A DNA stretch of 53,975 nucleotides from Streptantibioticus silvisoli (GTDB lineage Bacteria > Actinomycetota > Actinomycetes > Streptomycetales > Streptomycetaceae). The stretch is from contig NZ_JAAGKO020000057.1 of the NCBI RefSeq assembly GCF_027947535.2, forward strand, positions 1 through 53,975. The letters run 5' to 3'. Shown here piece by piece: positions 12,670 through 53,975 of this stretch; within the stretch, counting starts at the first letter, position 1; every line of letters starts with the position of its first letter. The position numbers and the translations under genes are program-made. Under the pieces are notes generated by a model. It had not been told where the DNA came from, did no database searches, and saw only the letters and a program-made list of their open reading frames with translations.

Positions 12670-46893
<34,224 letters not shown>

Positions 46894-47519: not shown

Positions 47520-49361
47520 TCAGGACCGCTGTGCGTGCAGCTCGCTGAGGCCGATGCGGGCGGCCAGCGCGAAGGAGCCCAGCCCGATCACGGACATCAG
47601 GGCGATGACCGGCCACTGCCAGGCGTTCGGCATGTACAGCGCGAGGAACCAGACGCGGGAGACCTTCCCCGACACCTTCATCAGCAACGGCACCAGGGCC
47701 TGGGGGAACAGCGCGATGCAGCCGACCAGGAAGCTGCTCCAGAACAGCCGCCGACGGTAGGCGGGCATCGCCTGGATGAAGGTGGCGCCCTCACCGGCCT
47801 TGCCCCGCTGCTCCTTGCCGGTCCGCATCAGGTACAGCAGTTCGGGTCCGCGCCTGGCCAGCGCCCGGTGCGCCGCACGCCCGAGCAGCGCGTAGCACAC
47901 CACCGCGGTGGCGGCGCCGGCCACCAGTCCGGCCCAGCGCAGGGCCGGTTCGTGGAGGAGCTGGCCGGCCAGGACGGTGGCCATCGCCGGTACCGCGGTG
48001 CCGAGCGCCATGATCATCATGACGAACGCCTGGCCGGTCACGTCCGAGTGGTCGAGCGGGGCGTTCCTGATCTCCCGGGGGTCGGGGCCGGGGGCCAGCT
48101 GGGTGACGGCGACCAGCGGGAGGAGTCCCGCGCCGCCGCCGAGCAGCGCGACGGTCGAGGCCAGCGCCCAGGGCCGCAGCTCCGGGTGGCCGCCGACCGC
48201 GATGCCGACGGCGGTCAGCACGACGGTCATCGGGGCGAAGACCGTCAGCCAGGCCAGCTGCCGGCCCCGGACGTCGGCACGTTCACTGCCCGGCATGAGG
48301 ACCGTCAGCCACAGCGCCGTGCCGTCCTGGCCGTAGAGGTTGGCGGCGGTGACCGCGCCCATCAGCGCGGTGAGCGCGCCGAGGAAGGGCAGGAACTCCG
48401 TGGAGTGGAACGCCAGCGGTACCAGGCAGGTCAGCACCGCGAAGGCCGGCGCGACGACGAAGCTCTGCATCCGCTGCGGATCACGCGCCCAGGTACGCAT
48501 CTCCTTGACGTACACCGCGGCCGTGGCACCGGACGACAGCCGGCCGCCCGGCGCGGCGCGGTCGGCCCCGGAGCCGCGTACGGTCGCCCGGGTCCAGCGG
48601 GCCGGGCCGAGGGACCGGGTCCACGCGACCCACAGCAGTGCGGTGAGGAGCGCGAGGCCGAGCAGCGGCAGCACGGTCATCGGCCAGTCGGACCGGGACG
48701 CCGCCTCGACGGCGAGCACCCCCCAGCTGGACGGCAGCGACCGCACGGTGATCGAGAACCCGTGGGAGAAGCCGGTGGTCAGCACGGAGTGCACGGCGAT
48801 GAACACCACCCAGCACGAGGAACTCGCCACCAGCATCGCCGCGTTGAGCAGGGCGCTGACGGCACCGCCGATCCGCGACCGGGACAGCGCGCCGAACAGG
48901 TGTGCCGTGAGCCGGGACAGCAGCACGACGAACAGCAGCTGGAGGAAGACGGCGGGCACGGCCACGACCACCGGGACGGCGCCCAGCCGGATTCCGAACG
49001 CCACCAGCGCGGTGAAGGCGACGAAGGTCACCGGTGCGGTCACGCCGACGAACGCCGAGCCGAGCAGTCCGAGCGCGAGCCTGCGGCGCGGGATCGGCTG
49101 GAGCTGGAACTGCTCGCCGCGCAGCACCGGCTGGCCGCTGTAGGCCGGGCCGAGCATCCATCCGAGGGTCCAGACGGCGAAGACGACCGCGAGCAGGTCC
49201 CTCACGGTGCTGTCGTGCGTCGCGTTCAGCGTCGCCACGTCGATGGTCGCGACCGCCAGCAGCAGGCCGACGAGGGCGCCGCCGAAGACCCAGCTGGACC
49301 GGGGACCGCTGATGTCCCGCCGCATGACGGCGAGCTTCATGTGGATCAGCGCGCCAGCCAC
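47520..49361 (-). CDS. ABC transporter permease, about 14 membrane helices
   Basis: A 613-residue integral membrane protein forming the channel of an ABC exporter with the ATPase encoded just before it. I count about 14 hydrophobic segments, among them SWVFGGALVGLLLAVA near the N-terminus, FVVLLSRL, LLPLLGLALLTALLW, FVMMIMALG and VIALMSVIGLGSFA near the end. A long charged loop sits roughly in the middle (after WVAWTRSLGP). The length suits a fused two-half ABC-2-like permease. The GTG at 49361 was chosen because AGGAAGGA lies five bases upstream (49367-49374). It overlaps the 3' end of the ATPase gene, so translation is probably coupled. An ATG at 49340 is possible but has no good Shine-Dalgarno. 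Placement among PKS genes suggests export of, or self-protection against, the polyketide; the substrate is inferred. Confidence 0.9.
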   Translation of the reverse strand: MAGALIHMKLAVMRRDISGPRSSWVFGGALVGLLLAVATIDVATLNATHDSTVRDLLAVVFAVWTLGWMLGPAYSGQPVLRGEQFQLQPIPRRRLALGLLGSAFVGVTAPVTFVAFTALVAFGIRLGAVPVVVAVPAVFLQLLFVVLLSRLTAHLFGALSRSRIGGAVSALLNAAMLVASSSCWVVFIAVHSVLTTGFSHGFSITVRSLPSSWGVLAVEAASRSDWPMTVLPLLGLALLTALLWVAWTRSLGPARWTRATVRGSGADRAAPGGRLSSGATAAVYVKEMRTWARDPQRMQSFVVAPAFAVLTCLVPLAFHSTEFLPFLGALTALMGAVTAANLYGQDGTALWLTVLMPGSERADVRGRQLAWLTVFAPMTVVLTAVGIAVGGHPELRPWALASTVALLGGGAGLLPLVAVTQLAPGPDPREIRNAPLDHSDVTGQAFVMMIMALGTAVPAMATVLAGQLLHEPALRWAGLVAGAATAVVCYALLGRAAHRALARRGPELLYLMRTGKEQRGKAGEGATFIQAMPAYRRRLFWSSFLVGCIALFPQALVPLLMKVSGKVSRVWFLALYMPNAWQWPVIALMSVIGLGSFALAARIGLSELHAQRS

Positions 49362-50152
49362 GACAGTCCTTCCTCGTTCTCCGCCCCGACGCCGACCAGT
49401 TCGACGAACCTCTCCTCCAGCGACACGCCGCCCCGCACCTGGTCCAGCGGTCCCTGGGCCACGACGTTGCCCTTGGCCATGACGGCGACGGTGTCACACA
49501 TCTGCTCGACCAGCGCCATGACGTGGCTGGACAGCAGTACGGAGCCGCCGCCGGCCACGAAGCGCTTGAGCAACCGCTTCAGCATGGCGGCGGCCACCGG
49601 GTCGACCGCCTCGAACGGTTCGTCCAGCACGAGCAGTCTCGGTCCGTGCAGCAACGCGACGGCCAGACCTATCTTCTTCCGCATGCCGGTGGAGTAGTCG
49701 AGGATGAGCGTCCGCTCGGTGTCGCCCGACAGTTCCAGGACCGCCAGCAGCTCGTCCACCCGCCCCGCGACCGTGGCCTTGTCCAGACCGCGCAACTGCC
49801 CCAGATAGCTCAGCAGTTCGCGGCCGGTCAGCTGTTCCGGCATCGCCAGGCCGTCGGGCAGGACGCCCATCAGCTCCTTGGCGCGCTCCGGTTCCTTCCA
49901 GACGTCGGTCCCGAAGACCTTCGCGTGCCCCGCGTCCGGGCGCAGCAGCCCGACCGCCATGGACAACATGGTGGTCTTGCCCGCGCCGTTGGGACCGACC
50001 AGTCCGAAGAACGATCCCGGCGCCACGGTGAGGTCGGCCTGTCCGACCGCCTCGTAGGTGCCGAACGTCTTTCGCAGGCCCACGAGTTCGAACGCGGCTG
50101 CCTGCCCATCGGCGGCGGGCGTGGGGGCACCGCCGTCCGACTCCTTCTGCAT
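49346..50152 (-). CDS. ABC transporter ATP-binding protein
   Basis: A 268-residue cytosolic ATPase that powers the adjacent permease. Walker A GPNGAGKT is at residues 53-60, the signature motif appears as YSTGMRKK at 153-160, Walker B LLVLDE at 173-178, the D-loop region EAVD follows, and the H-loop His is at 210. The pattern suits ABC-2 exporter ATPases of the antibiotic-resistance or multidrug kind. AAGGAG at 50168-50173 is nine bases from a TTG at 50158 and fifteen from the ATG at 50152, so the true start may be the TTG, which adds two residues. The gene starts about 30 nt after the PKS stop, and its 3' end overlaps the permease start. PKS, ATPase and permease therefore look like one transcription unit. 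Confidence 0.95.
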   Translation of the reverse strand: MQKESDGGAPTPAADGQAAAFELVGLRKTFGTYEAVGQADLTVAPGSFFGLVGPNGAGKTTMLSMAVGLLRPDAGHAKVFGTDVWKEPERAKELMGVLPDGLAMPEQLTGRELLSYLGQLRGLDKATVAGRVDELLAVLELSGDTERTLILDYSTGMRKKIGLAVALLHGPRLLVLDEPFEAVDPVAAAMLKRLLKRFVAGGGSVLLSSHVMALVEQMCDTVAVMAKGNVVAQGPLDQVRGGVSLEERFVELVGVGAENEEGLSWLAR

Positions 50153-50185
50153 AGTCAAGAACTCATTCTCCTTGTCATCTCTTTC

Positions 50186-53100
50186 CTACTCCAAGCTGTC
50201 CAGCTCGCTGTCGATCAGGTCGAAGATGTCCGCCTCGGTGGCGTTTTCGACGTCCCGGTCGTCGGGGGCCGCTGCCGGGTTCGAGGTATCACTCCACCGG
50301 GCGAGCAACGCTTCCATCCTGGCGCGAATCCTGGCCCGGTCGTCGCGGTTCAAACCCGGTGCGGCGGCTTCGAGTCGATCCAGGTCCTCCAGCGCCGCCA
50401 CGGCCGGGGACGGCGCCGCCGGAAGCAGCTTGCCGGCCAGGTAGCCGGCCAGGGCGGTGGGGTTGGGGTAGTCGAAGATCAGCGTCGGCGGCAGGCGCAG
50501 GCCGGTGGTGGCGCTGAGCTGGTTGCGCAGCTCGACCGCGGTCAGCGAGTCGAACCCCATCGCCGCGAACGCCTTCGCCGGTCCGATCGCCTGTCCCGAC
50601 GTGAAGCCCAGTACGCCGGCGGCATGCCCGCGCACGGTCTCCAGCAGCAGGGCGGACGCCTCGGCGGGGTCCAGGCCGGTCAGCCGCTCGGCGAACACGG
50701 CGGGCCGCGGGGCCGCCGCACTGCCCGCGGTCGGGCGGACCGGCCGGACCAGCGACTGCAACAGCCCCGGCAACGCACTCCCGGCAGCGGCCAGCGCGGC
50801 GGTGTCGACCGCCATCGGCAGCACAGCACCCCCCGCACCACCCAACGCCCGGTCCAACAGACCCAGTCCGTCCACCTCGCCCAACGGCACCAGACCCGAA
50901 CGCCCCACCCGCTCCCGCTCACCGGCGCTCAACTTCCCCAGCATCCCCCGGCCGTCCTCACCCAGCCACGGCCCCCAACCCAACGACACACCCGCCAACC
51001 CCTGCCGACGCCGATACTCCGCCAACCCGTCCAACACCCCGTTCGCCGCCGCATACCCCGCCTGCCCCGCCGAACCCACCGACGCCGACACCGACGAATA
51101 CAACACGAACAACGCCAAATCCAGCCGCGCCGTCAACTCATGCAAATACAACGCCGCCAACGCCTTCGGCTCCAACACCCCCTCCACCCGCTCCACCGTC
51201 AACGACTCCACCACACCGTCATCCACCACACCCGCCGCATGCACCACACCCGTCAACGCATGCTCCCCAGGGATCTCCCCCAACACCGCCGCCAGAGCAT
51301 CCCGGTCCGCCACATCACACGCGACAACGCTCACCCGCGCACCCAGCTCCGACAGCTCAGCCACCAGCTCCGCAGCCCCCGGCGCCTCCAGACCGCTCCG
51401 GCTGACCAACACCAACTGCCGCACCCCATACGCCGATACGAGATGCCGGGCCACCAAAGAACCCAACGCACCGGTGCCACCCGTGACCAGCACCGTGCCC
51501 CGCGGATCCAACCTGCGCGGCATCACCAACACGTTCTTCCCCACATGACGCCCCGAACCCATCAACCGGAACGCCCCCACCGCCTCCCGCACATCCCACG
51601 CCCGCACCGGCAAAAACGACAGATCCCCACCCTCGAACAACCCCACCAACGTCAACAAAATCTCCCGCAACCGCACCACACCCGCATCAAACAAATCGAA
51701 GGAGTGATAAGCAGCGGGGAAATCCTCGGCACGACGAACATCCGCCTTGCCCATCTCCACGAACCGACCGCCATCCGCCAGCAACCGCGCCGACGCATCG
51801 ACGTACTCCCCCGCCAGCGCGTTCAACACCACATCCACACCACGGCCGCCCGACGCCGCCCGGAACACCCCCTCGAACCCCAGATCACGCGACGACGCGA
51901 TCCGCCCCTCACCGACACCGAGACCCCGCACCACCGGCCACTTCGACTCACTCGCCGTCGCGAAAACCTCCGCACCCGCCCACCGGGCGAGCTGCACCGC
52001 CGCCATCCCCACCCCACCGGCAGCCGCATGCACCAACACCGACTCACCCGAACCCAGACCACCCAGGTCGAACAGGCCGTAGAACGCCGTCATGAACGCC
52101 ATCGGCACCGACGCCGCATCCACGAACGACCAACCCACGGGCATCCGCGCCAGCAACCGGTGATCGGTCACGGTGGTCGGGCCGAACCCACCCGCGAACA
52201 GGCCGAACACCCGGTCCCCCACGGCCAGATCCTCAACGTCCGCGCCCACCGCCAGCACCACGCCGGCCCCCTCCGCCCCCATCAAGCCGGGCTCTGGATA
52301 GGTACCGAGACCGATCAGCACGTCCCGGAAGTTCACCCCGGCCGCACGCACCTCCACCCGCACCTCACCCGCGCCGAGCTCTCCGGCCGCGGGCTGGATC
52401 ACCGGAGCGACCTCGTCCAGCACACCGTGCTCCGACGGCTCCAACCGCCAGTCACCCTCGCCCGCCAACGGCAGCACCAACCCACCGTCGTCCCTCACCA
52501 CCCGACCCGCCAGCAACTCCCCCTCCCGCAGCAGAACTTGCGGCAACCCACTGCCCACCGCCGCACCCAACGCCGCCCACGACGCCGCAGAACCATCCAC
52601 ATCCACCAACAGCACCCGCCCCGGATGCTCCAACTGCACCGACCGCACCAACCCCCACACACCCGCACCCGCCACATCCGACACCACATCACCCACCGCA
52701 CCACACGTCACCACCACCAAACGCGACCCACCACACCCCTCATCCCCCACCCAACACCGCACCTCACCCAGCACGCCCACCACCGCGTCCCGCACCACCG
52801 CCGTTCCGGTCCGCTCCGGGGACCCGCCCACCGGCAACACCACCACATCCGGCACCACTCCGGCCACCAGCTCCGCCACCCCGCTCAGCGCACGCACCCC
52901 GACACCCGCCCCGGCCAACGCCGCACCGGCGCCCAGGCCATCGGCACCCAGCACCACCACGTCACCCAACTCACCGGCGACCTCGGCACCCCGCGACCAC
53001 TCCAGCCGGTAGACGTCCCCCACCCCAGCAGCCACCCCGGCCCGCTCCAACTGCCCCGCCACCACCGGACGCACCGCAAGCCGCTCCACCGACACCACCG

Positions 53101-53975
53101 GAACACCCTCACCATCCACCGCCACCACCGAAAAACCACCCACACCAACCGGCGACAACCGCACCCGCAACACCGACGCACCCGACGCCCACAACGACAC
53201 CCCCGACCACGAAAACGGCAACCCCACACCACCAAAACCACCCGCACCCGAACCACCCGCACCATCCGCATCCGAACCACCCACCACCACACCCGCCGCC
53301 GCAGCCTGCAACGCACCATCCAACAACCCCGGATGCAACCCAAAACGACCCGCCCGACCCCACTCACCCTCCGGCAAACACACCTCAGCAAACACCTCAC
53401 CACCCACCACCCACGCACGCCTCACACCAGAAAACACCTCCCCATACTCCAAACCACCACCACCCAACACCCCATACACCTCACCCCTCCCCACCTCACA
53501 ACCACCCACCGGCGGCCACACACCAAACCCCTCAAAACCACCCACCGAACCCACAGAAACCCCCGACACCGGACTCAACACACCCGACGCATAACGCACC
53601 CACTCACCCTCCACCCAACCACCAACCCCACCCTCAACCCGACCGAACACCTCAACCGACCGAACACCCCCCACACCCACATCACCCACACACACCTGAA
53701 CCCCCACCCCACCCACCACCGGCAACACCAACGGCACCTCCAACACCAACTCCTCCACCCGACCACACCCCACCACATCACCCGCAGCCACCACCAACTC
53801 CACAAACACCGTCCCCGCCACCACCACCCGACCACCCACCACATGATCCCCCAACCACCCGTCCGACCCCACCGACAACCGACCCATGAACACCAACCCA
53901 CCACCACCCGCCAACCGCACACCCGCCCCCAACAACGGATGATCCACCACACCCAACCCCACCCCACCCACATCC
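50186..53975 (-). CDS. modular type I polyketide synthase, C-terminal module DH-ER-KR-ACP (5' end outside window)
   Basis: About 1,263 C-terminal residues of a PKS whose start lies beyond the right edge; the KS and AT of this module are not visible. Domains: DH 53945-53120, ER 52460-51530, KR 51510-50800, ACP 50680-50420, then a docking tail ending FDLIDSELDSLE. ER has [18 protein letters not shown] has [11 protein letters not shown] (B-type-like) and QAGYAAAN. ACP has GFDSL. The DH is odd: HVVGGRVVVA instead of HxxxGxxxxP, and YGEVF instead of YGPxF, though the His and LLDGALQ Asp remain. There is no thioesterase, so the chain passes to another PKS. The neighbouring loading PKS has no N-terminal docking domain and cannot be that partner; another protein outside the window, or a protein acting later, is implied. 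Confidence 0.95.
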   Translation of the reverse strand, partial: DVGGVGLGVVDHPLLGAGVRLAGGGGLVFMGRLSVGSDGWLGDHVVGGRVVVAGTVFVELVVAAGDVVGCGRVEELVLEVPLVLPVVGGVGVQVCVGDVGVGGVRSVEVFGRVEGGVGGWVEGEWVRYASGVLSPVSGVSVGSVGGFEGFGVWPPVGGCEVGRGEVYGVLGGGGLEYGEVFSGVRRAWVVGGEVFAEVCLPEGEWGRAGRFGLHPGLLDGALQAAAAGVVVGGSDADGAGGSGAGGFGGVGLPFSWSGVSLWASGASVLRVRLSPVGVGGFSVVAVDGEGVPVVSVERLAVRPVVAGQLERAGVAAGVGDVYRLEWSRGAEVAGELGDVVVLGADGLGAGAALAGAGVGVRALSGVAELVAGVVPDVVVLPVGGSPERTGTAVVRDAVVGVLGEVRCWVGDEGCGGSRLVVVTCGAVGDVVSDVAGAGVWGLVRSVQLEHPGRVLLVDVDGSAASWAALGAAVGSGLPQVLLREGELLAGRVVRDDGGLVLPLAGEGDWRLEPSEHGVLDEVAPVIQPAAGELGAGEVRVEVRAAGVNFRDVLIGLGTYPEPGLMGAEGAGVVLAVGADVEDLAVGDRVFGLFAGGFGPTTVTDHRLLARMPVGWSFVDAASVPMAFMTAFYGLFDLGGLGSGESVLVHAAAGGVGMAAVQLARWAGAEVFATASESKWPVVRGLGVGEGRIASSRDLGFEGVFRAASGGRGVDVVLNALAGEYVDASARLLADGGRFVEMGKADVRRAEDFPAAYHSFDLFDAGVVRLREILLTLVGLFEGGDLSFLPVRAWDVREAVGAFRLMGSGRHVGKNVLVMPRRLDPRGTVLVTGGTGALGSLVARHLVSAYGVRQLVLVSRSGLEAPGAAELVAELSELGARVSVVACDVADRDALAAVLGEIPGEHALTGVVHAAGVVDDGVVESLTVERVEGVLEPKALAALYLHELTARLDLALFVLYSSVSASVGSAGQAGYAAANGVLDGLAEYRRRQGLAGVSLGWGPWLGEDGRGMLGKLSAGERERVGRSGLVPLGEVDGLGLLDRALGGAGGAVLPMAVDTAALAAAGSALPGLLQSLVRPVRPTAGSAAAPRPAVFAERLTGLDPAEASALLLETVRGHAAGVLGFTSGQAIGPAKAFAAMGFDSLTAVELRNQLSATTGLRLPPTLIFDYPNPTALAGYLAGKLLPAAPSPAVAALEDLDRLEAAAPGLNRDDRARIRARMEALLARWSDTSNPAAAPDDRDVENATEADIFDLIDSELDSLE
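50189..50400 (-). other. C-terminal docking tail of the right-edge PKS
   Basis: After the ACP there are helical segments (DLDRLEAAAPGL, RARIRARMEALLARW), a linker, and a terminal acidic helix ATEADIFDLIDSELDSLE, the class-1 C-terminal docking layout. Its last helix differs from that of the giant PKS ([14 protein letters not shown]), as expected if each recognises a different partner. Confidence 0.85.
50400..53975 (-). other. fully reducing PKS module (partial): DH-ER-KR-ACP
   Basis: The visible part of a module expected to leave a methylene if its DH works. The DH half (53975 to about 53100) is Gly/Val-rich with a Gly/Ser/Asp insertion (GGSDADGAGGSGAGG). It uses codons such as GGG, GTG, GGT and TTG far more than the KR and ACP. 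The ER core shares long near-identical DNA with the ERs of modules 1 and 2, for example 51987-52050 against 33235-33300. Confidence 0.9.

Follow-up and report, generated by a model that had tools for sequence, protein, structure and literature searches.

An extremely skewed, probably active dehydratase domain in a polyketide synthase at a contig edge of Streptantibioticus silvisoli

The window analysed here, a stretch of 53,975 nucleotides from Streptantibioticus silvisoli (NCBI RefSeq assembly GCF_027947535.2, contig NZ_JAAGKO020000057.1), makes up the whole of one contig (C84) from a draft genome that totals 8.7 Mb over 130 contigs. At its right edge lies part of a polyketide synthase (PKS) gene, PKS frame A (Table 1), the 5' end of which runs beyond the contig edge. 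Frame A is a PKS of the cis-acyltransferase (cis-AT) type with PKS_DH_N, PS-DH, zinc-dehydrogenase (enoylreductase, ER), ketoreductase (KR) and acyl carrier protein (ACP) domains predicted by Pfam; its docking segment and architecture match those of gA in another genome of the same family (G216). The module is of the DH-ER-KR type, and the ER and KR motifs downstream of the dehydratase (DH) domain are intact. This DH is the subject of the present report. An earlier note, made from the letters of the sequence, had placed it at 53100-53975, slightly short of its actual extent (53974-53063), and had described it as compositionally strange and degenerate in its motifs, so that its activity was called uncertain and a leftover hydroxyl was considered. 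The analysis points instead to a probably active DH of ordinary fold, encoded by an extreme form of a genetic repeat of intense nucleotide skew (GRINS).

The composition of the DH is stranger than the earlier note had stated. The coding strand has skews of 0.71 (GC) and 0.74 (TA), no other 300-base stretches of the window are as skewed as those of the domain, and the plus strand of 53100-53975 consists of A and C to 86.2%. All fourfold-degenerate codons of the domain (216/216) end in G or T, and its third codon positions comprise no A and 1% C. The saturated run as a whole covers 220 successive fourfold-degenerate codons and ends at codon 312, just past the DH; the longest run elsewhere, in a survey of 619 open reading frames of at least 700 aa with antisense frames and repeated loci counted in, comprised 159 codons, in a KR of Streptomyces spiramenti (contig L113). 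Weaker saturated runs were observed around an AT on contig C37 of the strain itself (138 codons; L026) and in a DH of Streptomyces violaceusniger (110 codons; L081). Sequencing noise was rejected as the source of this composition, since 1262 codons are open and carry the expected domains, and since weaker runs occur in other places. Skew is also high over the larger interval 50701-53850 (GC 0.49, TA 0.54). Because of the base composition, the predicted pairing energy of the DH template strand (computed with RNA parameters) is as low as -0.07 kcal/nt, versus a mean of -0.52 kcal/nt for 50 randomly chosen other DHs.

The DH was compared within a panel of 228 distinct DHs (162 from named loci, 30 from the window and other contigs of the strain, 28 from other genomes of the family, and eight from G216), which remained of 262 profile hits after removal of duplicates and of hits shorter than 230 aa. 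The named loci were found by patterns with the catalytic His or the LPF motif, and the profile was built from eight DHs (E 1e-10), hence decayed DHs are under-sampled in the panel; the source genus is represented by one genome in the comparison set. The studied DH ranks first of the 228 in keto skew at fourfold sites and likewise in keto content of codon positions 1+2, and Gly makes up 25.7% and Val 23.4% of its residues, versus at most 17.4% and 18.1% in any of the other 227 DHs. Among the latter, stronger skew at fourfold sites goes with a higher keto share of codon positions 1+2 (Spearman 0.64); the effect of skew on amino acids is therefore a general one, and the studied DH lies about six residual standard deviations (SD) above the regression line (0.656 predicted, 0.793 seen, SD 0.022).

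The first catalytic motif of the DH, HxxxGxxxxP, reads DHVVGGRVVVAG, and the second, YGPxF, reads YGEVF; both are incomplete. The HVVGG part of the first is ordinary, for the erythromycin DH (PDB 3el6) reads HVVGG too, and the last residue alone departs from the motif. As the earlier note had observed, the catalytic His (His44) and Asp (Asp219) are present; Tyr177, Gln223 (in DGALQ) and LPFSW are retained as well. A residue other than Pro in YGx is not rare, being found in 18 of the 228 DHs, and it is no less common ahead of an ER than in other contexts: among those with at least 450 downstream residues, it occurs in seven of 37 with an ER next (the studied DH counted) versus 11 of 173 without, and the 18 DHs with less downstream sequence all have Pro. 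The PDB entry 6k97 ('Fusion DH') reads YGETF; no literature that names this entry was found among the matches listed. The loop from the catalytic Asp to the Pro of LPF is 33 residues long, with a panel median of 20 and a range of 14-37, and is at least 33 residues long in six of the 228 DHs, the studied one included. This loop falls into the alpha3-beta11 region, which is variable or unmodelled in the DHs of BorA and FluA (excerpts of PMC6697708), and is therefore not a mark of decay; the Gly-rich insertion of the earlier note is a long loop, and its reading as a unique insertion was dropped.

In G216, an orthologous assembly line is encoded by a giant PKS, an ABC pair and a further PKS in matching order, and this further PKS has the architecture KS-AT-KR-ACP/KS-AT-DH-ER-KR-ACP (KS, ketosynthase) and a docking end similar to that of frame A. 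The DH at the matching place in G216 is 54% identical to the studied DH and reads YGPVF. The best match is another DH of G216 with 60% identity (C3:1256259-1257134), that of the first module of the g4 gene (g4-m1), a fully reducing DH-ER-KR module of the same orthologous line. The g4-m1 DH is identical to the studied DH in the stretch GGLEYGEVFSGV, but differs in its skews (0.00/0.15), in its canonical motif Pro and in its shorter loop before LPFSW. Since this unskewed DH shares GGLEYGEVFSGV, YGE goes with the type of DH and not with skew; the letters YGEVF had been read correctly in the earlier note, and YGE was discarded as a sign of degeneracy. Relative to the g4-m1 DH, 164 third codon positions are changed from amino to keto bases and none in reverse, and of 119 amino-acid replacements, 92 are accompanied by a rise in keto content, seven by a fall and 20 by no change. 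Codon 53 is CCC (Pro) in the g4-m1 DH and GCG (Ala) in the studied DH, so that the lost Pro represents one first-position C-to-G difference along the direction of a drive towards keto bases; judging from the other 226 DHs, Pro would be the ancestral state at this residue.

The original GRINS paper is reportedly that of Nivina et al. 2021. Such repeats are known in assembly-line PKSs (PMC10394414; excerpts of PMC9899208) and are defined by GC and TA skews >0.25 (0.15 in the excerpts of PMC9899208) across roughly 1 kb of coding DNA in a PKS, together with a DNA identity of >80-90% between the repeat and a second region of that PKS. The DH exceeds the skew threshold, and the ER-KR-ACP part of frame A has its counterpart of sufficient identity (91.2%) on another contig of the strain, C114; the skews of this part are 0.35/0.41 in the copy of the window and 0.34/0.38 in that of C114. 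On its right, C114 stops within the linker that precedes the ER in the g4-m1 orthologue, and the terminal 127 nt of the contig are identical, over exactly that length, to window positions 52547-52673. Exactly 127 nt are also common to other contig ends (left ends of C8 and C61), and we interpret these shared ends as the assembler's k-mer vertices. By comparison with G216, C114 carries at its left end the KS-AT of frame A's gene, and the last 47 nt of that end recur in contig C7 (14748-14794), 14 nt before the end of C7; the KS-AT encoded on C7 is that of the g4-m1 orthologue. A single assembled DH is therefore reached from two flanks on the upstream side and from two on the downstream side, a geometry that suggests a collapsed two-copy DH; on the simplest reading, two nearly identical copies of the DH would have collapsed at the contig edge, i.e. 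a GRINS in the published sense. At the opposite end of the window, positions 1-127 are identical, over exactly 127 nt, to positions 64041-64167 of contig C61, and the left end seems to stop at a repeat as well.

Structural modelling, which the earlier note had proposed as a check, yielded an AlphaFold2 model of the DH (61 aligned DHs) with a pLDDT of 92 and a pTM of 0.91, low mainly in the Gly-rich loop; an ordinary double-hotdog fold is confidently predicted, and a model of this kind does not test activity. The best Foldseek match was rifamycin DH10 (PDB 4ln9; TM 0.86/0.93), followed by 6obv and 3el6. Of the features of an active modular PKS dehydratase, the catalytic His and Asp, a double-hotdog fold (predicted), DxxxQ/H and LPFxW are found in the domain; the HxxxGxxxxP and YGPxF motifs are incomplete, and for the former a published exception is known (chaxamycin DH9).

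Further evidence concerns the KS that would accept the product. KS gatekeeping motifs (described in excerpts of PMC11321453) were tabulated at 114 junctions, nine of them without a motif read, with KS and module types called by simple patterns. Small-residue motifs follow 9/20 DH-ER-KR, 4/33 KR and 1/61 DH-KR modules; MYH-like motifs follow 50/61 DH-KR and 6/20 DH-ER-KR modules; and hydroxyl-type motifs follow 17/33 KR modules and 1/20 DH-ER-KR modules. From gene order and docking segments, the acceptor of frame A appears to be a KS with SSSS on contig C61 of the strain, which belongs to the small-residue group and weakly favours a fully reduced intermediate.

Taken from sequence and model together, the locus probably encodes an ordinary-fold, active DH of a fully reducing module on DNA that represents an extreme GRINS. 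A strand-specific drive to G and T on the coding strand would have gone to completion at the fourfold silent sites, would have pushed variable amino-acid positions to Gly and Val and, through a C-to-G change, would have converted the otherwise invariant Pro of HxxxGxxxxP into Ala. YGE would have been inherited together with the kind of DH found in another of the line's fully reducing modules. The DH-ER-KR-ACP block would have been duplicated in two modules, probably via gene conversion, with conversion from the g4-m1 type into the frame A module, and its DH part would have collapsed at the contig edge. From this we infer catalysis by the DH and full reduction of the product at the frame A module. 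A more far-reaching proposal, which we put forward tentatively and hold to be doubtful, is that after saturation of the silent sites the GRINS drive can prevail over purifying selection even at an invariant residue of a catalytic motif, and that the changed motif is subsequently carried into a second module of the line by gene conversion. The near-absent pairing in the A/C-rich template strand of a saturated copy could favour strand invasion and sustain the process.

Several observations weigh against an active DH shaped in this way. The final residue of HxxxGxxxxP is Pro in 226 of the 228 DHs, a gap in one, and Ala in the studied DH alone; the absence of this Pro, noted earlier, thus sets the studied DH apart from all other panel members that have a residue at the position (Pro in 226/227). 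Next to the catalytic Asp helix, Ala216 is replaced by Gly, Ala being present in 225/227 others; this position and Pro53 are the two lost of 44 columns conserved to at least 95%, and with 62/69 columns kept at a conservation of at least 90%, the loss at these columns is the 11th highest of the 228 DHs. Retention of conserved columns was dropped as a sign of activity: the L028 DH on contig C37 of the same genome has Tyr for the catalytic His and is probably inactive, although its motifs are well preserved apart from this, and it keeps 42/44 and 62/68 columns, as many as the studied DH, so that retention cannot separate live from dead DHs. (Two further panel DHs with a replaced His or Asp keep 38/44 and 34/42 columns.) Skew does not correlate with the loss of conserved columns across the other 227 DHs (rho -0.02), and loss of a Pro through drive is therefore a single case. 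No second copy of the DH was found in the strain's own assembly by DNA or protein search; the best DNA match in the genome has 75% identity over 256 bases, and the next best DH is 54% identical. Chaxamycin DH6 and DH7 have both motifs, yet must be inactive according to excerpts of PMC4551226, and motifs alone therefore do not decide activity. Furthermore, the conservation of the ER may reflect gene conversion.

The strongest competing explanation, which we nevertheless rate as unlikely, is a DH with no activity or a severely reduced one, an idle ER and a module that leaves a hydroxyl. It draws on the lost Pro and the Ala216-to-Gly replacement, on the rank in column loss, and on the L028 DH, in view of which retention cannot exclude inactivity. 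It is opposed by the retained His, Asp, Gln and LPFSW, by YGE in the unskewed DH of a DH-ER-KR module, and, weakly, by the small-residue group of the acceptor KS, which is itself assigned from docking. It is opposed also by chaxamycin DH9, a variant with Ala for the motif Pro that is predicted to be functional from the product (excerpts of PMC4551226). For DHs with Ser in place of the motif Pro, annotations as active and inactive are mixed, and one is proposed to be active (excerpts of PMC9600693); two inactive DHs have been explained by a change of His to Tyr (excerpts of PMC9673147). No positive sign of a leftover hydroxyl was found, nor any proof of activity. An active DH is thus considered likelier than an inactive one that leaves a hydroxyl: 'uncertain activity' was formally a correct statement and the departures from the motifs are real, but for the most part they do not signify decay.

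An assembly misjoin is a little less probable again. The DH would then belong to the g4-m1 orthologue only, joined to frame A via the shared 127-mer, and frame A's own DH would be missing from the assembly. The higher identity to the g4-m1 DH (60%) than to the positional one (54%) would be accounted for in this way, as would the exact sharing of 127 nt at 52547-52673 and the fact that the upstream part of g4-m1, on C7, likewise runs up to the DH. On the other hand, a lost second DH should persist as a contig, and the search of the genome yielded none; the reading frame crosses the junction without a stop; and directly ahead of the DH, the upstream part of frame A's gene on C114 has the same 47 nt as C7. 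A double-bond-shifting (isomerising) DH is highly improbable and was rejected: DHs of the lasonolide line are recognized by the joint absence of the motif Pro and of Gln/His in DxxxQ/H (excerpts of PMC9600693), and the Pro is absent here as well, but the DGALQ of the studied DH retains both Asp219 and Gln223, and the ER that comes next is intact.

Table 1. Features of PKS frame A and its DH domain (window positions)
Feature	Position	Strand	Basis
PKS frame A, DH-ER-KR-ACP and C-terminal docking segment	50186..53974	-	1262-aa open frame, Pfam domains
ER-KR-ACP duplicated in a second module (C114, 22046-24281)	50438..52673	-	91.2% over 2239 alignment columns
Putative collapsed two-copy repeat with the DH	52547..53975	-	C114 127-nt and C7 47-nt end sharing
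Keto-saturated run, 220 successive fourfold-degenerate codons all G or T	53042..53974	-	
DH domain, 304 aa	53063..53974	-	Pfam PKS_DH_N and PS-DH; PDB matches by sequence and fold
Gly-rich loop, about residues 233-250, between catalytic Asp helix and LPFSW	53225..53278	-	loop lengths, low pLDDT 231-250
Catalytic Asp219 (GAT)	53318..53320	-	alignment columns
Glu179 replacing Pro of YGPxF	53438..53440	-	panel alignment; Glu also in G216 g4-m1 DH
Ala53 (GCG) replacing Pro of HxxxGxxxxP	53816..53818	-	panel alignment; CCC in G216 DH
Catalytic His44 (CAT)	53843..53845	-	alignment columns

The remainder of the window contains a giant PKS gene (12670-47004, minus strand; 11,444 aa), for which the domain map shows six extension modules. 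In its first KS (46126-46893), the active-site Cys is replaced by Gln (VDAGQASS), which we take to be like the KSQ of loading modules. Additional blocks with strong skew of the coding strand were observed in this gene as well (33001-36150, 38551-42300, and shorter ones; about 0.31 GC and 0.41 TA), over AT-DH-ER stretches of its modules. An ABC-transporter pair (47520-50158, minus strand) lies between the two PKS genes and is found in the same place in G216, with 64% and 77% identity. An antisense open frame (49523-53974, plus strand; 1484 aa) is a by-product of base composition, and no evidence for a gene was found for it.

The skewed, duplicated block (GRINS) is the likely cause, overlooked in the earlier note, of the strange DH. 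The domain represents a clean test case for the effect of nucleotide-skew repeats on protein sequence: its fourfold silent sites are exhausted, further drive can therefore act on amino acids only, and a residue of a catalytic motif is changed along the direction of drive. If the tentative proposal of an overridden purifying selection were true, GRINS would edit enzyme chemistry directly, beyond the swapping of existing domains. The case is also a warning that composition, and inherited variants such as YGE, can mislead motif-based calls of inactive DHs, and that draft assemblies may be interrupted or collapsed by skew repeats precisely in the domain under study.

With rifamycin DH10 (4ln9), the fluvirucin DH (6obv) and erythromycin DH4 (3el6), the studied DH shares the double-hotdog fold (predicted here) and the catalytic His and Asp; in contrast to it, these DHs have the motif Pro, and identity in the Foldseek comparison is 41-42% (4ln9, 6obv) and 35% (3el6). 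Chaxamycin DH9, as described in the excerpts of PMC4551226, has Ala for the motif Pro and keeps the catalytic His, as does the studied DH; an ER is unmentioned there for its module, and the comparison covers its described motif and the function predicted from the product. Fourfold saturation or the loss of a catalytic-motif residue is unmentioned in the available text of the literature on GRINS and skew (PMC10394414, PMC9899208, PMC11907408, PMC9205934), and we do not claim that either is unreported. With published GRINS, the block shares a strong GC/TA skew of the coding strand, its location in a cis-AT PKS, a near-identical second module (ER-KR-ACP, 91%) and a domain-sized scale. It differs from them in that the identity of the DH part to a putative second copy is suggested by contig ends, and in that the DH has a skew near 0.7 versus >0.25, is saturated at all fourfold sites and is changed at an otherwise invariant motif residue.

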